Source of the DNA: a virus
IMG/VR virus record: IMGVR_UViG_3300034101_002812
Span: 1 to 39,005 of that record
Length of the DNA stretch: 39,005 bases
Strand: one strand, 5' to 3'
Positions 3,891-23,259 of this stretch are shown piece after piece (position 1 is the stretch's first letter; each line of letters opens with the position of its first letter). The position numbers were made by a program, and so were the translations under genes. The notes beneath the pieces were generated by a model that was given only the letters and a program-made list of their open reading frames with translations, had not been told where the DNA came from and ran no database searches.

Positions 3891-4928
3891 GTGAACGCAA
3901 CCATCAACAACACGCCCGCCGCCTTCGCCCGCGCCGCCTTCGAGAAGGCCAAGTCTCTGCACGAGCAGTGGCGGTCCGAGATCGCCGCTGGCCGGTTCAT
4001 CTGGAGCGGTCCGTCGATCTGCCCGAAGGAGGGCGACGGCGTCTCTGAGAAGGTTCCCTCGAATCGGGAACTCCGGGCCAGCTACGCAGCCGCGACGAAC
4101 AGCCTGAACGACCACCTCGACCGTCTCGTGGCCCAAGAGACCGGCTTCGGCGGCTCGTTCATCGAACTCGTCGAGGCCCAGCGGGAGAACGGCTATCGCC
4201 CCTCGTTCTACGAGAAGACCAACCCCGCCGTGGAGGTTCTCGCCGACGCCTACGACTTCGTGGCGAAGCTCTGGGGGCTCCCCCTGACGTCCTACCGGCC
4301 CGAGCAGGCCAAGCCGATCCCGGCGTGCCCGCAGACGCTTCCGGCGGGCCTGCCGCCGCTCCCGGCGTGCATCAGGGACGACAAGAGGGGCTTCTACAAC
4401 TCGAACGGCTACGCCAGCCAGATCGTCCAGTTCATCGAGGCCGGGCGGATCGCAGACGCGGTCCTCCTCGCGGTTCGCGTGGCCGGTAATGATCACCGCC
4501 ACGCCGCCGACATTCGCGACTGGTTCAGCCGCGCCGCCGACTCGCTCAAGCACCGGCTCGACGATGATCGCCCGGCGGTGCTGACGCTCCAGTGGATCAA
4601 GGATCGGTGCCGCCAGCTTCGCGACATCGCTCACGCGGAAGCCAAGACGGTCGACTGCAAGTTCATCCGCTCGCGGGGGTTTGAGTACCGGCTCTGCTCT
4701 GAAGACGACGTGATCGAGGGTTCCGGTCCGGGCTGCAAGGAGCCGACGCTCAAGGGACTCCGGGCTGACGCCGCCCGGTGCCGCGAGCAAGGCGGAAGCT
4801 CGATCAACATCAGCGGCGGCTACGACGGCAGCGACGATTTCGAGTTCAGCGACTACCAGCCGTTCGTCACCGAGTGGAGCCTGACTCTGTCCGTCGACGA
4901 GATTCTGGCGATCGGCAAGAAGTCCTGA
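3891..4928 (+). CDS. Early protein of unknown function (345 aa)
   Basis: Not recognised. The GTG is chosen because AAGGAG at 3878-3883 is 7 nt upstream; an in-frame upstream codon at 3858 has no ribosome site. It is the first gene behind P2. Residues 1-120 are helical and charged, a Pro-rich linker follows around 135-160 (PIPACPQTLPAGLPPLPAC), then a helical segment (QIVQFIEAGRIADAVLLAVR) and a C-terminal domain starting near RLCSEDDVIEG. The first position in a strong early operon suggests high expression; no enzymatic motif is visible. Confidence 0.8.
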   Translation: MNATINNTPAAFARAAFEKAKSLHEQWRSEIAAGRFIWSGPSICPKEGDGVSEKVPSNRELRASYAAATNSLNDHLDRLVAQETGFGGSFIELVEAQRENGYRPSFYEKTNPAVEVLADAYDFVAKLWGLPLTSYRPEQAKPIPACPQTLPAGLPPLPACIRDDKRGFYNSNGYASQIVQFIEAGRIADAVLLAVRVAGNDHRHAADIRDWFSRAADSLKHRLDDDRPAVLTLQWIKDRCRQLRDIAHAEAKTVDCKFIRSRGFEYRLCSEDDVIEGSGPGCKEPTLKGLRADAARCREQGGSSINISGGYDGSDDFEFSDYQPFVTEWSLTLSVDEILAIGKKS

Positions 4929-4964
4929 GCATCACCAGCACCCCAAACCCGAAGGAGACTTCCA

Positions 4965-5636
4965 GTGAACAACATCATCACCCCCGAGATCGAGACCGAA
5001 GCCGCCCTCTACGCGGAGGGCACGAAGTACAGCAAGGCAGACATCATCGCTGAGTATCGAGCGCACGTTCGCCGTGCCGCTGAGGACGGCGTCGAGCATC
5101 TCGACATTCAGCGGTTCTGCGAGAACGTGCTGGGGATCGACGTCAGCGGCTCAGACGCCGTCGAACGAGTGATTGCCAGCCTCAAGGGAGAGCGTCTCAC
5201 GTCCGACCGTGTTGCAAAGGCTTTCGATAACATCGACGGCTACTACCCGGTGATCGACGGCGACCTCGTGCTGACCGGCGAGTTCCGCTACGCCGACCAG
5301 CCCGGCGATTGGTCGAGCTACCGCAACGAGGCTGCGATCGACAACGAAGTCGCCCTCGCCGCCGGGTGGACGATCGACGATGAGGGGTTCGCCGAGCCGT
5401 CGGAGTTTGCCGAAGACGGCATCGGCCTGCCTGCGGAGACTTTGTGCAAGCTCAGCGGACTCTCGCTCGAAGAGTTGGGGCTCGACGAGTCCTGCACGGT
5501 GACGGTGTTCCCGGACTACATCGGCGGGCTGGGCGGGCAGGGGCACGACCTCCCAGACTTGGCGGCAGGCAACAAGGACTTGGAGAAGCGTGTCTGGCAG
5601 GCAGCGGTCAAGTGGGCGAAGGGAGGTGACAAGTGA
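4965..5636 (+). CDS. Early protein of unknown function (223 aa)
   Basis: Not recognised. GTG start in the recurring cassette GAAGGAGACTTCCAGTGAAC. Acidic protein with an N-terminal helical region (KYSKADIIAEYRAHVRRAAEDGVEHL), a beta-rich middle (YYPVIDGDLVLTGEFRY) and a Gly-rich stretch (YIGGLGGQGHDLPDLA) near the C-terminus. Its TGA overlaps the next GTG. Confidence 0.8.
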   Translation: MNNIITPEIETEAALYAEGTKYSKADIIAEYRAHVRRAAEDGVEHLDIQRFCENVLGIDVSGSDAVERVIASLKGERLTSDRVAKAFDNIDGYYPVIDGDLVLTGEFRYADQPGDWSSYRNEAAIDNEVALAAGWTIDDEGFAEPSEFAEDGIGLPAETLCKLSGLSLEELGLDESCTVTVFPDYIGGLGGQGHDLPDLAAGNKDLEKRVWQAAVKWAKGGDK

Positions 5637-5863
5637 CCAGCATCAAGTGGCACGAAGTCGAACGACGTCGCTGGACGGCGGGCCGCTTCCGCATCACCTT
5701 GGGCAACGTCATCGGCCAGCCCTACAGACTTGAGGTGCTGGACAAGAGTGGCGACCGGTGGGGGTATGTCGGAATCGGAAGCTACAAAAGCCTGTCAAGC
5801 GCAAAGCAGGGTGCAAGAAACCATCAGTCTCGAACCAAACAACGCGAAGGAGACGACCAGTGA
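5633..5863 (+). CDS. Small basic protein of unknown function (76 aa)
   Basis: Not recognised. Beta-rich small basic protein (WHEVERRRWTAGRFRITLGN, GYVGIGSYKSLSSAKQGARNH); the closing helix after YKSLSSAK resembles a short DNA- or RNA-contacting helix but this is a guess. GTG overlaps the upstream stop, and its own stop overlaps the next GTG. Confidence 0.65.
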   Translation: MTSIKWHEVERRRWTAGRFRITLGNVIGQPYRLEVLDKSGDRWGYVGIGSYKSLSSAKQGARNHQSRTKQREGDDQ

Positions 5864-6084
5864 ACATCATCGGCAACGAAAACACGAGGACGGTCAACTT
5901 CGGCAAGCGGCACCGGGTCGCGGTGACGTTCACCCGGATCGACGGTCTGTGGCACGCCCACGGGGCGATGCTGCCGACGCCGAAGCGGAACTTCCGCACC
6001 GCCCGTGCGATCGTCGCGAGGCGGCTGGCGGGGATCAAGTTCGTGGCTCACGGCGGCAAGATTGAGATCGGAGGTGACGAGTGA
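5860..6084 (+). CDS. Small basic protein of unknown function (74 aa)
   Basis: Not recognised. The GTG is chosen over earlier in-frame starts because it carries the GAAGGAGACGACCAGTGAAC cassette. Strongly basic, two-layer beta pattern followed by an Arg-rich helix (TARAIVARRLAGIKFVAHGG), which resembles small nucleic-acid-binding folds. Confidence 0.65.
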   Translation: MNIIGNENTRTVNFGKRHRVAVTFTRIDGLWHAHGAMLPTPKRNFRTARAIVARRLAGIKFVAHGGKIEIGGDE

Positions 6085-6329
6085 CGCACCCCAACATCGA
6101 AGCCGCCGTGCGGTGGTCGCTCGACGAGTTCGACCGACGCACGCGGCTGCTCGAAGAAGACTCGCCCGAGGCGAGAGTTGACTGGATCAACCCGGACTAT
6201 CGAGTCTCGTGGACAGACGTCTGTGCAAGGTTCTTCGACGACCCGCCCGTGCGGCACTTCGCCGGACTGCGGATCGACTACGACACGGCGCTGAAACAGG
6301 AACTCACAAAAAGGAGGAACAGCAAGTGA
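6081..6329 (+). CDS. Small early protein of unknown function (82 aa)
   Basis: Not recognised. Acidic, helical, Trp-rich (VRWSLDEFDRRTRLLEED, VSWTDVCARFFDD). Translation is probably coupled to the previous gene through a GTGA overlap. Confidence 0.65.
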   Translation: MTHPNIEAAVRWSLDEFDRRTRLLEEDSPEARVDWINPDYRVSWTDVCARFFDDPPVRHFAGLRIDYDTALKQELTKRRNSK

Positions 6330-6595
6330 ACACTGTCTACACCCCCGATGCTCTGTCCAGAAGCGTTGCCAAGGGCAAGTACAAGACTTGCCTTCTGCGA
6401 GACCTCAGTAAGACCGACACGGACGACGCGTTCGTCTTCGTCTTTCCGTCGCCAGACTTGATCAACGCCGAGAACGGCGACGGCAACTTCCTCGAAGTCT
6501 GGGACTACGCCCGCGACCTGTCGAGTGTCACCACAAGCCGTGGCGACATCGCGACCACGCCCGAGACCGTCATCTACTACACGTGGGAGGACTGA
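6326..6595 (+). CDS. Small early protein of unknown function (89 aa)
   Basis: Not recognised. AAGGAGGAACAGCAA precedes the GTG. Acidic alpha/beta protein (DDAFVFVFPSPDLINAENGDG, TPETVIYYTWED). Short spacing to its neighbours places it in the P2 operon. Confidence 0.65.
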   Translation: MNTVYTPDALSRSVAKGKYKTCLLRDLSKTDTDDAFVFVFPSPDLINAENGDGNFLEVWDYARDLSSVTTSRGDIATTPETVIYYTWED

Positions 6596-13674: not shown

Positions 13675-15042
13675 ATGGTTTCACGGATGAAGCCGTGGCC
13701 CCACCAAGGGGCTGCGGTGGCGTGGCTGGCTGCACGCCAGTACGGATACTTAGGCCACGAGATGGGCACGGGCAAGACGCTCACGTCCATTTTGGCGACG
13801 GCAGGATGCCGGCTCACTCTCGTGGTCTGCCCGATCGCCGTCGGGCCTGCGTGGCCCAAGCAGGTCGGTCTGGCTGGCGATCAACGCAAGGTCTGCCTCG
13901 CGGTCGATGGACCGGCCGCGAGGCGGGCCGAGCGGATCAAGGCCGCGATCGAGTCGGGCGAGCCGACGATCGTGGTCGTCAACTACGACGCCGTCTGGCG
14001 TGGCGAGGTCGGCAAGCTGGTCGCCAAGACTCAGTGGGACTGCGTCATTCTCGACGAGGCTCACCGGATCAAGTCTCACACAGGCAAGGCCTCGAAGTTC
14101 ATCTCGAAGCTGGCGGATCGTCAGCCGAAGGCCAAGAAAATCTGCCTGTCCGGGACGCCGACGCCGCACTCGCCGCTGGACTGGTACAGCCAGATGCGGT
14201 TTCTCGACCCTGAGATTCTTGGCTGCTCGTTCCCGGCGTTCCGCAACCGAATCGCAAGCACGCACCCGAAGTATCCGGGCTGGGTCACAGGCTTCAAAAA
14301 GGAGGGTCTCGACGCTCTCCGTGAGCGGATCGACCAGCACGTACATCGCGTGAAGGCCGAGGACGTCCTCACACTGCCAGACGCGATCCACACCGTGATC
14401 GACGTGGAAATCACGGGCAAGACGCGGAAATTCTACAACTCGCTCGAACAGGACATGATCGCCTTCATCGACGGCGAGCCCGTCACGGCAGCGAACCAAC
14501 TTGTCGTAGTGAGCCGACTCCGCACGGCAGCGGCAGGATACACGCGGATCGACGGCGGCAACGAGTTTACCCTGATCGACGGCACTCCTGCCAAGAGTGC
14601 GATCTTCGCAGACTGGCTCGAAGACTTTCCCCGAGACGAGCCGCTCGTCGTGTTCTGCTCGTTTGTGAAAGACATCGAGGAGGTGGTCTCGCAGTGCCGG
14701 CAGAACGGACGCAAGGTCAGTGAGCTTCGCGGTGGCGTCAATCAGCTTGCCCAGTGGCAGGCCGGCGAGACTGAGGTGATCGTCATCCAGCAGCAGTCTG
14801 GCGGGGCTGGCATCGACTGTACCCGGGCGTCGCACTGCGTGTATTTCTCGATCGGACACTCGCTTGGCGACTACGAGCAGAGCCTCGCGAGACTCCGCAG
14901 GCCGGGGCAGGCCAAGACGTGCCGCTACTACCACCTCGTGGTGAAGAACACGGTGGAGGAGACGATCTACGCGGCGTTGCAAAACAAACGGGACGTGGTC
15001 GAGGAGGTTCTTTCGAGGCTCACACGGAGGGTTGGCTCATGA
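13675..15042 (+). CDS. SNF2-like DEAD/DEAH helicase (455 aa)
   Basis: A superfamily 2 ATP-dependent DNA translocase. Visible motifs are KPWPHQGAAVAWL near the start (Q-like), Walker A GTGKT at 31-35, DEAH at 127-130, SGTP at 159-162, and a C-terminal RecA lobe with GGAGIDCTRASHCVYFS and the SNF2-type motif VI YEQSLARLRRPGQAKTCRYY followed by NTVEETIYAALQNKRD. The R-x-x-R-x-G-Q and T-V-E-E-x-I signatures favour SNF2-like over plain DEAD helicases. The compact length is usual for phage members, which lack accessory domains. First gene of the replication/recombination module. No Shine-Dalgarno; an alternative ATG lies four codons in. The stop overlaps the exonuclease start. Confidence 0.93.
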   Translation: MVSRMKPWPHQGAAVAWLAARQYGYLGHEMGTGKTLTSILATAGCRLTLVVCPIAVGPAWPKQVGLAGDQRKVCLAVDGPAARRAERIKAAIESGEPTIVVVNYDAVWRGEVGKLVAKTQWDCVILDEAHRIKSHTGKASKFISKLADRQPKAKKICLSGTPTPHSPLDWYSQMRFLDPEILGCSFPAFRNRIASTHPKYPGWVTGFKKEGLDALRERIDQHVHRVKAEDVLTLPDAIHTVIDVEITGKTRKFYNSLEQDMIAFIDGEPVTAANQLVVVSRLRTAAAGYTRIDGGNEFTLIDGTPAKSAIFADWLEDFPRDEPLVVFCSFVKDIEEVVSQCRQNGRKVSELRGGVNQLAQWQAGETEVIVIQQQSGGAGIDCTRASHCVYFSIGHSLGDYEQSLARLRRPGQAKTCRYYHLVVKNTVEETIYAALQNKRDVVEEVLSRLTRRVGS

Positions 15043-15860
15043 GCAATGGTCTGGAAGTGTTTACCGATATGCCAAACGACGAGTATCACGGGCGAAAGTC
15101 GCACGTGAGTCGGTCGCAGGCGAGTCGCTATCGCGGTCTGCGTGGCGGTCGGGCGCAGCGGTATGAGGAGGTGAAGGGAGGCAAGCTCTTCGAGGGCAAC
15201 GCCGGGACGAGCTTCGGCACTCTCGTCGACACCGCCTTCGAGGCGGAGGCCCGTGGCCTCGACTGGCGGAGCCGGTGCGCGGTCGCGCCGCCGGGCGTGC
15301 TGACATCGAACAGCCAGCGGCGTGGCAATGCTTTTCAAGAGTGGAAGGCGAGTCTCCCGGCCGACGCGATCGAGTGCAGCGCCGCCGACTTCGTCAAGAT
15401 CGGCGACATCGTCGAGAGTCTCAAGGAACACAGACTTGCCCGGAAGCTCTTGGAGTCGATCAAGCACACGCAGTACAGCGTGTTCTGGACCGACGAGGAC
15501 GGCCACGACCGCAAGTCTCGTCCGGACGGCCTGAACGACGACGAGTGGTTCGACCTGAAGACGACGAGCAGCGAGTGGCACGAACTCAAGTATTCGTTCC
15601 GTCGCTTCGCATACGACTGGCAGGCGGCTTGGTACACGGACTCTGCGATCGCCGCCGGCTGGAAGCCGTTCCGGTTTCGGTTCATCGTCGTGCAGACGTT
15701 CGCCCCGTATGACGTCGCCGTCTTCAGCCTCGAAGACGAAGCGATCGAGAACGCTCGCCACGAGATCAAGAAGACTCTGGCGGACATCAAGCACCGCCGC
15801 GAGACGGGCGAGTACGTGCCTGATCAATATCACGCGGAACAGGTGTTGCAGTTGGGTTGA
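15039..15860 (+). CDS. PD-(D/E)XK exonuclease, RecE/Cas4-like (273 aa)
   Basis: Residues 7-31 (VFTDMPNDEYHGRKSHVSRS, then QASR) match the typical opening of phage exonuclease VIII-like proteins (PNxxYH...lSrS). GTLVDTAF near 60 replaces the usual G-x-x-x-H-x-x-x. K159, R161, D163 and D172-L-K174-T form the nuclease core, and Q195...Y199 the motif after it. Expected to resect double-stranded ends for recombination or replication. Coupled to the upstream helicase by an ATGA overlap. Confidence 0.85.
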   Translation: MSNGLEVFTDMPNDEYHGRKSHVSRSQASRYRGLRGGRAQRYEEVKGGKLFEGNAGTSFGTLVDTAFEAEARGLDWRSRCAVAPPGVLTSNSQRRGNAFQEWKASLPADAIECSAADFVKIGDIVESLKEHRLARKLLESIKHTQYSVFWTDEDGHDRKSRPDGLNDDEWFDLKTTSSEWHELKYSFRRFAYDWQAAWYTDSAIAAGWKPFRFRFIVVQTFAPYDVAVFSLEDEAIENARHEIKKTLADIKHRRETGEYVPDQYHAEQVLQLG

Positions 15861-16756: not shown

Positions 16757-18355
16757 GTGGAGTACCGCGCACAAGAGGTGTTTCAGGCGGCTGCGGCCGT
16801 CGCACGCAAGGGGTGGAAGATCGTCAAGCTGTACGGCGTCAGAGACAACTGCACGTGTACATGTCACAAGGGGAAGGACTGCGAAAATCCGGGCAAGCAC
16901 CCGGCCGGCGGCGCGGACTGGCCCTCGCGAGCCACCGACGACGAGGAGGAGATCAGCGACTGGTTTCACTACGGCGACACGAACGAGAACATGCGGGTCA
17001 ACGTCGGCGTGAGACTTGGCAAGTCGAGCGGCATCATCGACGTCGAGTTCGACACGCCGGAGGCCGAGGCGACTCTCAAGCGGTTCGGTCTCGACAAGAT
17101 CGACACGCCAACTTACCGGGCCTCGCGGGGTTGTCACCGGATTTTCCTCTACGAGGACGATCTCCCTGACGTCGGGACGGTCAAGATCGACCAACTTGAG
17201 GTCCGACTTGGGGGCGGCGGCAAGGCGGCTCAGTCCGTGATGCCGTCCTCGTGGCACCGGACCGGCATCCAGTACCTGTGGCTCCCGGGAATGTCTCCTG
17301 ACGACGTCGAGCCTGCCCGCCTGCCTCCGGAGTTCAAGGAGGCGGTGAAGGCCAACTCCAAGAAGGGTGGCTCCGGCGCGATCGTGCAAGCCATCGACGT
17401 GGTCCGCGACAACAGGCAAGTCACGGCCGGAGGACGGCACGGATTCCTCGTCGGATACGCTTCGAGGCTCGCGAGGACTCTCAGGGACTTCACCGACGCC
17501 GATCGGGCGGAACTGACGAACGTCCTGTCCGCCTGCAACTACCGCTTCTGCTCGCCTCCCAAGGGCGAGGACGAGGTCGCCCGGATCGCCAGCGACCAGT
17601 TCAATCACTACCGGGACAGGGCTCTGGAGCGGAGAGCCGACAAGCCGTTCGAGAGATTCGGCCTGCGGTGGAACGACGAGACTCGCGAGTACGAGTCTGG
17701 GGACTGGCGTCTGACTGTTGTTTACTCCGATCCTGTCGAGTACAGGCTGAGGTTCCCATACGACGGCCGCGTGATCACGGCGTCCCTCGACTCGCGTCAG
17801 TTCGCGGAGCCGAAGGACGTCGCCGCCGCCGTTCTCGCGGCCAGCGGCAAGATCGACCTCCAAGACCCGCACAACTCCAAGTGGTGCGACATCTGGAAGG
17901 GATACACGATCAGGAACGACGACGGCGTTCGCGACGTGCGTGGACTCAAGTCGAAGCTCCTCGAAGAGGCCGACGAGGAGCGGCCGTCGGTGGACTCCTG
18001 CTCGTGGAGCCAGCACGCCGCCTTCCTGATCGCCTATCTGAGGCCGTTCTCGCGGTCCGACGACGACGACGATGTCCTCCCCTGCCCGGATGGCACTCCG
18101 AAGTGGATCAAGGGCGACGACGGCGAGTGGTGCCTGTACTTCAAGTGGAACGAGCTTTGCGCCGCCGCGTGGCGGTCTGCGAAGGCTGGCATCCCGACTC
18201 TCAAGGAGAAGACGAAGCTCCGCCGGCACATCCTCCACGAGGCCGGGCTCGAAGACTTTGTTGACAAGAAGTTCACCGTGAATGGGAAGCCCGGACGCTG
18301 GATCGTCTGGACCGACCGGCACATGGCCGCGCTCGACCGCCTGACTGGTGCGTGA
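16757..18355 (+). CDS. Bifunctional DNA primase/polymerase (prim-pol) protein (532 aa)
   Basis: Synthesises primers in phage replication. The N-terminal domain begins AAAAVARKGWKIVKLYG, holds GKHP at 46-49, DW, WF near 69-70, the metal site IIDVEFD (D95, E97, D99) and ASRGCHR with H127, the order seen in prim-pol (PF09250-type) domains. An inserted cysteine cluster (C32, C34, C36, C42) is common there and may bind zinc. A PriCT-like helical region follows (GGRHGFLVGYASRLARTLRD). No C-terminal D5/SF3 helicase motifs are visible, so a separate helicase must act. CAAGGAGGGTTTT precedes the GTG. Confidence 0.85.
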   Translation: MEYRAQEVFQAAAAVARKGWKIVKLYGVRDNCTCTCHKGKDCENPGKHPAGGADWPSRATDDEEEISDWFHYGDTNENMRVNVGVRLGKSSGIIDVEFDTPEAEATLKRFGLDKIDTPTYRASRGCHRIFLYEDDLPDVGTVKIDQLEVRLGGGGKAAQSVMPSSWHRTGIQYLWLPGMSPDDVEPARLPPEFKEAVKANSKKGGSGAIVQAIDVVRDNRQVTAGGRHGFLVGYASRLARTLRDFTDADRAELTNVLSACNYRFCSPPKGEDEVARIASDQFNHYRDRALERRADKPFERFGLRWNDETREYESGDWRLTVVYSDPVEYRLRFPYDGRVITASLDSRQFAEPKDVAAAVLAASGKIDLQDPHNSKWCDIWKGYTIRNDDGVRDVRGLKSKLLEEADEERPSVDSCSWSQHAAFLIAYLRPFSRSDDDDDVLPCPDGTPKWIKGDDGEWCLYFKWNELCAAAWRSAKAGIPTLKEKTKLRRHILHEAGLEDFVDKKFTVNGKPGRWIVWTDRHMAALDRLTGA

Positions 18356-18365
18356 GAATGTTCGA

Positions 18366-18380
18366 TCTCTCTATAGGGCA
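18366..18380 (+). repeat. Left arm of 14-bp inverted repeat
   Basis: TCTCTCTATAGGGCA; its 14-bp core pairs exactly with 18468-18481. The spacing between the arms is 87 nt. Confidence 0.8.
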
Positions 18381-18467
18381 GTTTTTTTTAGAACTACTTT
18401 TGAGAAGAGATTCCAACATTCCTTAAAAAGGCTGAAACCGAAAGTCTTGTCAGCAAAGGATTTAAGT

Positions 18468-18481
18468 TGCCCTATAGAGAG
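18468..18481 (-). repeat. Right arm of 14-bp inverted repeat
   Basis: TGCCCTATAGAGAG, reverse complement of 18367-18380; continues into AATCTCAC, which mirrors GTGAGA left of the other arm after a 7-nt offset. Confidence 0.8.
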
Positions 18482-18538
18482 AATCTCACAAAAGGCACCT
18501 GAGATTCCTGAGATTCCAAAAGCAAGGAGATGGGCGGC

Positions 18539-20206
18539 ATGGGAAGGATAGAGAGGCATCTGGGTGGTCCCGGCACCGGGAAGACCCACCTTATTCTCGA
18601 TCGTTTGACTGCAACTAAAGTCGAGTTCGGTTTGAGCGTGCATGAGATCGGTCTCTGTACGTTCACGAGGGCCGGGCGTCAGGAGCTATCGGAGCGAGCG
18701 GCTGGAGAGTGGGGATGCGACCCGGAGACCCTGACCAAGCACGGCTGGTTCAGAACCGCCCACTCGATCTCTCACCGTCAGTGCGGCATCGAGGAGGGGC
18801 AGTTGCTCGAAGGCAGCGAGGGAGCCGAGTGGATCGGCACCGCCGTCGGCGGGAAGGTCGCCACCCGTTTCGACCCCCGCAGTCGGGAGGTCAGCTACGT
18901 GTCCGGGGACGGAGACAACTCCCTGACTCTGGGACTCAAGGCTTGGGACTTAGCCCGCGCCAACATGACCAGCCTGAAGAGCGTCCTGCGACGGTGGGCG
19001 TTGGCCGGAGAGCGTGTGCCTGACGAGTCGGCCGTCCGCCGGTACATCGACCGGTACGAGCAGGCCAAGCGTCGAGAAGGGCGTCTGGATTACACGGACA
19101 TCATCTCCCGGTTCGCAGGGATCAGGTTCACTCTCGACGGCCCGGAGGAGACCGACCCGGAGGGCGAGGTGCCGACGGGGATTCGGGCGTTGGCGATCGA
19201 CGAGGCTCAGGACTCGTCTGTGCTGGTGGACCGAGTCTGCCGGAGACTCGCCGCCAGTCCGTCGATCGAGCGGGTCTTCCTGAGCGGAGACGCCTACCAG
19301 TCGATCTACTCGTTCAACGGCAGCGACTACCGGCTCTTCTTGAACTGGGAAGCCGAAGAGTTTGTCATGCCTCGCAGCTACCGATGCCCCCCGGTCGTGA
19401 TGGAACTGGGCGAACGCTGCATCCGAAGAATGCGTCACGGCTACCGAGACCGCCACATTCAGCCCGCGTCGCATTCCGGCCACGTCCGCCGCGCCGGTTC
19501 TCCAGAGCAGGCGATCGCTGCGATCAAGCCTGACGAGTCTGTCCTGATCCTTGGCCGGTGCGGGTTCGCTCTTCACGAGTACGAGGACATCCTCCGCAGC
19601 CGGGGCATCCCCTACACGTGGATCGACCGCGTCGGCAGTGCCGTCGAAATGTCTGGATACATGTGCCTGTGGAACCTTCAGCACGGCAAGGTCGTGCATC
19701 ACGACGACTGGTCAAACGCGATCTCGATGATTCAAGCGGCCGACAAGGACGTCGGACCACTGCTCGTTCGAGGCGAGAAGCAGGCGTGGAAGAAGGGGCT
19801 TCGCTCTCAGGTCGACATCATCAGGCCGGTTGACGAGGACTTCGCACTCGCCGGTGCCACGGAGACGTTCGCGAACATCGTCCGCGAGGGGCGGTGGCCG
19901 ACGTTTCTCGACAAGTCCCACGCCCAGAAGGCCGAGCGGTGGGTCGAGGCCGCGAAGAAGTTCGGGCCGGAGACGGCGTGCAACCCGAAAGTCCGCCTCT
20001 CGACCATCCACGGCGCGAAAGGCTGCGAGGGCGACACGGTGATCCTCTCGACGATCTCCAGCCCCGCCGTGGAGCGTGGCCGGCAGGCGATCGACGAGAT
20101 TCACGACGAGGAGTGCCGAGTGAACTACGTGGCCGTGACCCGCGCCCGTCGGGACTTGTGGATCGTGAACGACGGCGAGCAGTACGCGATGGAGATTCCC
20201 GCATGA
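18539..20206 (+). CDS. UvrD/Rep-like superfamily 1 DNA helicase (555 aa)
   Basis: A 3'-5' DNA helicase by family. Motifs in order: Walker A GGPGTGKT at 9-16, motif Ia CTFTRAGRQEL near 40, Walker B DEAQD at 221-225, motif III LSGDAYQSIYSF near 248-259, motif IV RSYRCPPVV near 279-287, motif V STIHGAKGCEGDTVIL, and motif VI EECRVNYVAVTRARRDLW close to the C-terminus. It is shorter than cellular UvrD (about 720 aa), typical for phage. ATG 18539 is used because AAGGAG at 18524-18529 is 9 nt upstream; an ATG at 18530 directly abuts that site. Likely the replicative or recombination helicase partnering the primase. Confidence 0.93.
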   Translation: MGRIERHLGGPGTGKTHLILDRLTATKVEFGLSVHEIGLCTFTRAGRQELSERAAGEWGCDPETLTKHGWFRTAHSISHRQCGIEEGQLLEGSEGAEWIGTAVGGKVATRFDPRSREVSYVSGDGDNSLTLGLKAWDLARANMTSLKSVLRRWALAGERVPDESAVRRYIDRYEQAKRREGRLDYTDIISRFAGIRFTLDGPEETDPEGEVPTGIRALAIDEAQDSSVLVDRVCRRLAASPSIERVFLSGDAYQSIYSFNGSDYRLFLNWEAEEFVMPRSYRCPPVVMELGERCIRRMRHGYRDRHIQPASHSGHVRRAGSPEQAIAAIKPDESVLILGRCGFALHEYEDILRSRGIPYTWIDRVGSAVEMSGYMCLWNLQHGKVVHHDDWSNAISMIQAADKDVGPLLVRGEKQAWKKGLRSQVDIIRPVDEDFALAGATETFANIVREGRWPTFLDKSHAQKAERWVEAAKKFGPETACNPKVRLSTIHGAKGCEGDTVILSTISSPAVERGRQAIDEIHDEECRVNYVAVTRARRDLWIVNDGEQYAMEIPA

Positions 20207-20693: not shown

Positions 20694-20724
20694 CACCCCC
20701 GCACCGCATTTCAAAGGAGTGAAA

Positions 20725-21192
20725 ATGCCCAAGCCTATGCCCGGCGTCGTTGACGCACTTCAGGCGTCTCTCAGGAATCACTGGACGCAGATCGCGGCCT
20801 ACGAGACTCAGGCGTCTCACTTCGCACGATGGGGATACGCCAAGCTGGGCGTGGCGTTTCTGGCATACGCCGTCGAGGAGCGCGACCACGCGAAGAAGCT
20901 GATTGATCGTCTGGAGTTCTTCGACGCCCAGCCGACCTACGAGTTCGAGCATCCGCTGTGGCCTCGACACGACTACGAGGGCATCCTCGAAGTGAACTAC
21001 ACGTTCGAGACGACGACGGCCAACGCCGAAAGGTCTGGATACCTTCTCTGCGTTGAACTGGGTGACGCCGAGACTGCGGCGATCTTCGCTGAACTCCTGA
21101 AGGGCAGCGAGAACGGCATGGCCGAGATCGAGGCCACGCGTCTCGTTATCGACCAGATCGGCATCGACAACTTCTTGGCGGACCGGACGTGA
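20725..21192 (+). CDS. Bacterioferritin-like protein (155 aa)
   Basis: Iron-storage family fold by sequence. Aligned with E. coli Bfr as I recall it, the W-G after helix A, E-x-x-H (E52, H55), E95 and the C-terminal IGIDNFL (cf. MGLQNYL) all coincide without large gaps, and length is nearly equal (155 vs 158). However, ligand positions E18, E127 and H130 are H19, S128 and G131, and the haem Met52 is R53. So the dinuclear ferroxidase centre is altered and haem binding lost; a structural, metal-binding or DNA-protecting role is possible. ATG with AAAGGAG 6 nt upstream is preferred to the GTG at 20719. Confidence 0.8.
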   Translation: MPKPMPGVVDALQASLRNHWTQIAAYETQASHFARWGYAKLGVAFLAYAVEERDHAKKLIDRLEFFDAQPTYEFEHPLWPRHDYEGILEVNYTFETTTANAERSGYLLCVELGDAETAAIFAELLKGSENGMAEIEATRLVIDQIGIDNFLADRT

Positions 21193-22391: not shown

Positions 22392-22554
22392 TACACAGGA
22401 CCACCATGTCCGCAGGGCGCTGCGTTCATCGGCCCCATTGGTCGCCAAGCCGAGGGTGGCGAGTAACCACGGCAGTCGAGGCTTGTGTTTAACTCCGAAG
22501 CTCTTTCCACGAGCGACTCGACCGTCCGCCTCACGTCACGAGGCCAATACAACC
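22392..22554. other. 163-nt gap, no clear gene
   Basis: Contains a 28-codon ATG reading frame at 22406 with weak AGGA upstream, and no recognisable promoter, motif copy or hairpin. The protease gene that follows has an unusually poor ribosome site (GAGGCC), so a missed upstream start or a leader is possible. Confidence 0.3.
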
Positions 22555-23259
22555 ATGACACCTCACGATTACCTTCGAGCGTTGGCGATCACCCTCGCGG
22601 CTCTCGCCACCACTGACGACCTAGTCCCAGACGAGTCGTTTGTCAGGTACGCGTCAGGTTTCCAGAACTACACCGCGAAACTCAAAGTACCGTGCGAGAA
22701 GAAGACATGCGAGGCCACTGCCACTCTCATCGCAGACCGGTGGGCGTTGACTGCCTTACACGTCGTCGGCGACGCGGAGTCATGCACTCTCACTGTCGGC
22801 GACAAGACTTGGAAGGTCGACCGGATCGTCAGACATCCGGACAAGGCTGACGTCGCCCTGCTCCGCTCCGAGGAGTCATTCGGGCTCGACTTCTACCCGC
22901 CCCTGAGCGACGGAGAAGAGGCAGAGGGCGACATCTGCTCGATCGCCGGGTACGGCGTCCACGGGCGAATGTCTGAGGGCCACAACCAGTACGACGGCAG
23001 GCTGCGTGCTGGAACGAACCACGTCGAGAGGTTCGAGAGAGACTTGATCGTCTGCACCGCGTCTCCCGGCAGGAGCAAGTACGAGGTGTGCATCGCCCCC
23101 GGAGACTCTGGCGGACCCCTGTTCTGCAAGGGAAAGCTCTGCGGCATCAACTCGATAACGATGGCACCGAAAGGGCCACTCAAGAGCCGCACGGGCGAGG
23201 AGAGCGGACACGTCCGCGTCTCGCTCTACAAGGCTTGGATCGAGGAGACGATCAAGTGA
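22555..23259 (+). CDS. Trypsin-like (S1) serine protease, probably exported (234 aa)
   Basis: Catalytic triad: H69 in WALTALHVV, D99 in DKADVALLR, S185 in APGDSGGPLF, with the expected family spacing. Six cysteines or more could form disulfides. The N-terminus YLRALAITLAALATTDD is a weak signal peptide, suggesting action outside the cytoplasm or in the virion. A frame start at 22438 is possible, but the added 39 residues look unlike protein. Role unknown: host protein or prohead cleavage, or surface digestion. Adjacent to a methyltransferase and a small unknown gene. Confidence 0.87.
   Translation: MTPHDYLRALAITLAALATTDDLVPDESFVRYASGFQNYTAKLKVPCEKKTCEATATLIADRWALTALHVVGDAESCTLTVGDKTWKVDRIVRHPDKADVALLRSEESFGLDFYPPLSDGEEAEGDICSIAGYGVHGRMSEGHNQYDGRLRAGTNHVERFERDLIVCTASPGRSKYEVCIAPGDSGGPLFCKGKLCGINSITMAPKGPLKSRTGEESGHVRVSLYKAWIEETIK

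Follow-up and report, generated by a model that had tools for sequence, protein, structure and literature searches.

We sought to identify the function of the intergenic gap at positions 18356-18538 in a viral contig from IMG/VR that is 39,005 bases long and has no terminal repeats (hereafter the window). Origins of uncultured phages are rarely identified, and a sequence-only reading of this DNA had proposed one here, in an AT-rich gap between a primase gene and a helicase gene. The gap has a GC content of 41%, compared with 61% for the whole window, and contains the lowest-GC 150-bp stretch of the contig (18371-18520, 38%; the next lowest is 46%). In four of the five genomes checked (the window and three of four large relatives) the gap is the lowest-GC 150-nt stretch. 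Both flanking gene assignments were confirmed, as an archaeo-eukaryotic-type (AEP) Prim-Pol upstream and a UvrD-like SF1 helicase downstream (Table 1). A switch in GC skew, which had been named as a check, was not found at the gap. Since skew tracks gene strand in these genomes, it is uninformative as an origin marker here and was dropped. As set out below, the conserved layout of the locus, its co-varying iterons, a second site in seven relatives and a predicted winged helix in the Prim-Pol support the earlier proposal, and we consider it likely from these sequence comparisons that the gap serves the phage as its origin of replication, oriL-like and of the iteron type.

Table 1. Features of the locus between the Prim-Pol and helicase genes, in window coordinates.
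Feature	Positions	Strand	Basis
Prim-Pol (AEP) gene, candidate initiator	16760..18355	+	PF09250, E=1.6e-19; start by alignment with relatives (16-member alignment); AlphaFold2; Foldseek
Candidate replication origin, intergenic gap, 41% GC	18356..18538	.	composition and comparison with relatives
Arm 1 of the 15-bp inverted repeat, holding box CTATAG (18371-18376)	18366..18380	+	repeat search
T8 tract adjoining arm 1, within an A+T-rich stretch; putative unwinding element	18382..18389	+	sequence
Iteron L1, AGATTCC	18408..18414	+	repeat search
Iteron L2, ACATTCC, one mismatch; tandem pair kept in relatives	18416..18422	+	repeat search and alignment
Conserved A+T-rich core, AAACCGAAAGTC...TTTAAG, between the left iterons and arm 2	18435..18466	+	alignment
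Arm 2 of the inverted repeat, holding box CTATAG (18472-18477)	18468..18482	-	repeat search
Inverted iteron, AGAATCT on the + strand, one mismatch	18480..18486	-	repeat search
Iteron R1, AGATTCC	18502..18508	+	repeat search
Iteron R2, AGATTCC	18511..18517	+	repeat search
Probable ribosome-binding site of the helicase gene, AAGGAGAT	18524..18531	+	sequence; CAAGGAG motif in many relatives
UvrD-like SF1 helicase gene	18539..20206	+	PF00580/PF13361; phrog_1967; start by alignment, ORF opens at 18530

The most conspicuous element of the gap is an inverted repeat, described in the sequence-only reading as 14 bp long with 87-nt spacing. The spacing was correct, and the repeat is in fact a perfect one of 15 bp (TCTCTCTATAGGGCA), the longest perfect inverted repeat in the window at spacings of up to 200 nt. 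A 15-bp inverted repeat was reached in 1 of 100 shuffled whole windows, and none of 400 shuffled gaps contained one longer than 10 bp. Each arm holds a CTATAG box, with 95 nt between the two. In relatives these boxes read CTATATAG or CTATAG (with variants), that is CTATA(TA)G, and are likewise inverted and 87-97 nt apart; in several of them box 1 shares bases with the stop codon of Prim-Pol. Because the flanking bases pair weakly between the arms (outer flanks p=0.22, inner flanks p=0.04), the dyad behaves as two boxes rather than as one long stem. A long stem as the essential feature was rejected, since relatives keep the boxes only, and the 'dyad' is best read, from the alignment, as two inverted CTATA(TA)G boxes at fixed spacing. 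CTATAG is very rare in these genomes: the 39-kb window has two copies, both in the origin arms, and genomes of about 95 kb (G002, G003, G004, G009) have two or three, below the expectation from base composition.

Three direct copies and one inverted copy of GAGATTCC had also been listed for the gap. Those counts held, with exact direct copies at 18407-18414, 18501-18508 and 18510-18517 and an inverted copy matching at 7 of 8 positions at 18480-18487, and the list was short by one direct copy, ACATTCC, beside the first. The gap is the densest cluster of the 7-mer AGATTCC in the window. Taken alone, its repeat count is not significant, as 6 of 60 shuffles of the gap scored as high. Since a single sequence leaves the repeats short of significance, the argument depends on comparison with relatives.

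Searches with the helicase and the Prim-Pol found relatives among uncultured phages, with Prim-Pols 28-85% identical. We aligned the gaps of 19 of these relatives (Prim-Pol 44-85% identical to the window's) with the gap of the window; some aligned gaps are near-identical, so one representative per group was used in tests where stated. The aligned gaps all sit between the same two genes and share one order of parts, namely box 1, iteron pair, core, box 2, inverted iteron, right iterons and ribosome-binding site. A gap model built without the window's clade recovered the gaps of all other clades tested and left those of the window and G001 unmatched at E<=1. What links the window's clade to the others is therefore position, part order and protein homology, and the evidence inside that clade (four close gaps and two second sites) is independent. 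Scans of bacterial genomes found no relatives, annotated phages gave only distant Prim-Pol matches (28-29% identity) and no significant match to the gap sequence, and plasmids gave a single Prim-Pol match (33% identity). No close cultured relative was found for the phage group to which the locus belongs. Distant relatives (L092, L098 and others) have a GC-richer, different dyad, GGTTTTCCCGGCA, in the gap after Prim-Pol, which may be another origin type.

Across the aligned gaps the iteron sequence varies from phage to phage while its geometry remains constant, with units such as AGATTCC, GGGGTAT, AAGTTCA, AGGTAGC, and GGTATT changing to GGTTTA. We compared left and right iterons within gaps and in mismatched combinations, in which the two parts came from different gaps. 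Among 13 representatives, left and right iterons from the same phage gave 206 matches, whereas permuted pairings averaged 78 (p about 5e-5); the two sides co-vary. A stricter yes/no version of the test was uninformative because chance 7-mer matches are common. The change can be followed in a single pair of phages: the Prim-Pols of L077 and L091 share about 92% identity, and between the two phages GGTATT has become GGTTTA in several copies at once. Such co-varying iterons offer a sequence handle on the origin and on the specificity of its initiator.

The candidate initiator is the Prim-Pol itself. Its AlphaFold2 model comprises a Prim-Pol domain (residues 1-185), a helical bundle, a beta-rich middle part and a C-terminal winged helix (about residues 400-531; pLDDT 85, pTM 0.76). 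The top PDB match of the winged helix in Foldseek is a modest one, TcpK with oriT DNA (probability 0.98, E 6e-3, TM 0.39-0.47), and for the model of the whole protein there is a weak match to SaPIBov1 Rep as well. A sequence search with the Prim-Pol returned no solved structures, and no helicase domain was recognized in the protein, PF09250 being its sole family and the models containing no helicase fold. Where iterons differ (window and L069), the Prim-Pol domain is 81% identical and the rest only 44-56%; where they agree (window and L067), all parts are 76-91% identical. In partial correlations, the relation to the iterons was 0.37 for the middle part and 0.05 for the C-terminus, tying no specific domain to the iterons. 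The winged helix as iteron reader is accordingly not supported by correlation. Natural iteron swaps between similar phages (window and L069; L077 and L091) are ready-made specificity experiments.

The UvrD-like helicase downstream is not among the replicative helicases known to load themselves. In six relatives (L048, at 3977-6517, and L049-L053) this helicase carries an insertion of about 290 residues that is missing from the window's protein. The L048 insertion matches the intein splicing domain PF14890, and these six helicases therefore probably contain inteins. Further downstream, the window encodes a ferritin-like protein (20719-21192) and a trypsin-like protease (22438-23259). Upstream of Prim-Pol, at 13675-15860, lie genes for an SNF2-type helicase and a PDDEXK exonuclease-like protein (phrog_412, exonuclease VIII), which suggests a recombination module.

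We then ran a model of the 20 gaps over 12 contigs, in each of which the main site is found by construction. Additional matches, the second sites, appeared in G002, G004 and G011 at E<=0.002 and in G003 at 0.046; the reversed-sequence control gave nothing better than E=1. A second site was found by blastn in G001 (1e-12) and by iteron density in G007. Each second site has the iterons of its own genome; for these six genomes the true pairing of main and second sites was the best of 720 permutations. The second site predicted for G013, a near relative of the window that had not previously been used, was found as AGATTCCAGAGATTCC 28.2 kb downstream of the main site. Seven relatives have a second site with the same genome-specific iterons as the main site, about 22-33 kb downstream of it (G002 and G003 counted as circular). 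In the window's clade and in G007 it is without the A+T-rich core sequence of the main site. No second site was recognized in G006, G008, G009, G010 and G012, several of whose contigs end before the expected distance; the G009 contig extends past it, and there the site may be absent or too diverged. The right end of the window lies 20.6 kb past the gap, short of the expected distance, and by alignment gene order is shared by the window, G001 and G013 as far as the tail-fibre region. From these sequence matches the system appears to have two sites rather than one. Terminase genes were identified in three of these relatives, in each case downstream of the second site: genes for the small and large subunits directly follow it in G002 and G003, an MT-A70 gene lies between site and terminase genes in G011, and in G013 the first gene after the site is not a terminase gene. 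G002 and G004 share a palindrome, GGATAGCCTATCC, located after the second site (L108:3750-3810, L114:400-460) and beside noncoding sequence, and degenerate repeats around ggcttggcctggaatg (L108:3400-3520) adjoin the second site of G002.

Could the same features serve transcription instead? The gap might be a promoter with operator repeats through which a phage regulator controls the helicase operon, the second site doing likewise for the late (terminase) genes. Both sites do lie upstream of same-strand genes, with the second directly before the terminase genes in two relatives and one gene removed in a third; iterons and inverted boxes could equally be operators, and the boxes are TATA-like. 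On the other hand, the two boxes face each other, no sigma-70-like promoter was found in 17900-19000, and the site always follows the Prim-Pol gene within a run of same-strand replication genes; the gene after the second site of G013 also departs from the pattern. No T7-type RNA polymerase was found, in a search that gave no signal for its controls either, and with it the reading of CTATAGGG as a T7-like promoter was set aside. We regard regulation of this kind as rather unlikely to be the function of the gap, and note that origin and operator may coincide.

That both sites hold or cut the genome, as partition, packaging or recombination sites, we judge improbable. The second site lies upstream of terminase genes in G002, G003 and G011, where pac or cos sites often lie, and several contigs (G001, G004, G007) end close to it; yet G002 and G003 continue through the second site, the main site adjoins replication genes far from the terminase, and no ParA/ParB-like gene was noted among the genes searched around the gap. 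Least probable of all is that the inverted repeat acts in the transcript as an RNA stem-loop (or as a cruciform), for example on helicase translation. Both strands do fold with a 15-bp stem (z-scores of -1.7 for the + strand and -2.5 for the - strand), but the 20 sequences yield no consensus structure, Rfam gives no match, the box flanks barely co-vary, and the repeats that do co-vary are mostly direct and hence non-pairing. An RNA element was rejected on the Rfam and consensus-structure results, as was a conserved core hairpin, suggested by eye in L086, L046 and L070 and unsupported across the set.

For the gap as an origin, we infer the following sequence of events by analogy with known systems. 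The Prim-Pol, encoded directly upstream, would bind the iterons, open the A+T-rich core and prime DNA synthesis there, and the UvrD-like helicase encoded downstream, possibly with host proteins, would extend the bubble. With lower confidence, the second site would be a late origin or a fork-stalling site that aids formation of concatemers for packaging, as proposed for SPP1 oriR. The wider proposal, that an AEP Prim-Pol without a helicase is itself the recognizer that opens and primes at fast-diversifying iteron origins, of which there are two matched ones with the second near the packaging genes, is tentative, and we hold it to be possible rather than probable. Relative to known iteron origins, three things would be new: an AEP Prim-Pol that lacks a helicase, a dyad made of boxes, and a matched site elsewhere in the genome. 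The two-site design makes SPP1-type switching from theta to concatemer replication testable in AEP Prim-Pol phages.

The sequence-only reading had called the anatomy of the gap typical of origins, and known origins with similar anatomy indeed adjoin or follow replication-protein genes. As in iteron origins, there are several direct short repeats specific to the replicon (five copies in conserved geometry) and, judged by composition, an adjoining A+T-rich region. The closest AEP analogue is the Sulfolobus plasmid pRN1, whose essential stem-loop origin lies directly 3' of the AEP replication gene (PMC4234260). Here too, and as with the stem-loop of phages BIP-1/BPP-1, a dyad of about 100 nt lies directly 3' of the gene of an AEP protein with a C-terminal winged helix, a predicted one in our case (PMC4234260). 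The pRN1 origin differs in its 21-nt stem, its lack of iterons and the SF3 helicase within its replication protein; in our system there are iterons, the boxes of the dyad are kept while a long stem-loop is not, and only PF09250 was recognized in the Prim-Pol. In SaPIs the origin is found immediately after rep, and it is the initiator's C-terminal domain that recognizes the iterons (PMC7581432). The likeness to SaPI and SCCmec elements (Rep, Cch2) consists in the short iterons and in a candidate origin directly downstream of the candidate initiator gene (PMC7581432). Those elements, however, initiate with a helicase that loads itself and usually have a separate primase, whereas in our system the primase is the candidate initiator. 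Besides its origin, phage P4 carries another repeat site, crr, that is required in cis. The primase of P4, the alpha protein, has a winged-helix domain and binds the origin repeats (PMC4234260); alpha is a DnaG-type primase with its own helicase domain, and we liken it by description. Phage NrS-1 also has an AEP Prim-Pol, which starts DNA synthesis at a specific motif (PMC8718748). The NrS-1 start motif TTTGGTTA occurs in the core of L082 and is absent from the window's gap, and this reading was rejected.

The two-site arrangement is like that of SPP1. This phage has a pair of origins, each with direct repeats and an A+T-rich region, to both of which one protein, gp38, binds; at the late one, forks are proposed to stall and so set off concatemer synthesis (PMC6316719, PMC3485210). 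As with oriL and oriR, there are two distant sites with direct repeats and an A+T-rich region, the first inside the replication module and the second among late genes, the distant site carrying the same repeats in the seven relatives and expected beyond the end of the window. In SPP1, oriL is located within the gene that encodes the protein binding it (PMC6316719, PMC3485210). SPP1 relies on a dedicated origin-binding protein, a helicase loader, a DnaB-type helicase and host DnaG, whereas Prim-Pol and a UvrD-like helicase flank the site here and no binding protein, loader or DnaB helicase of the gp38/gp39/gp40 type was found among the gap's neighbor genes. The origins are 12-13 kb apart in SPP1 and 22-33 kb here, and here, unlike in SPP1, the iterons change from phage to phage. 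Taken together, the system resembles by analogy a combination of pRN1, SaPI and SPP1, in which the sequence features of an iteron origin are joined to the two-site feature of SPP1.
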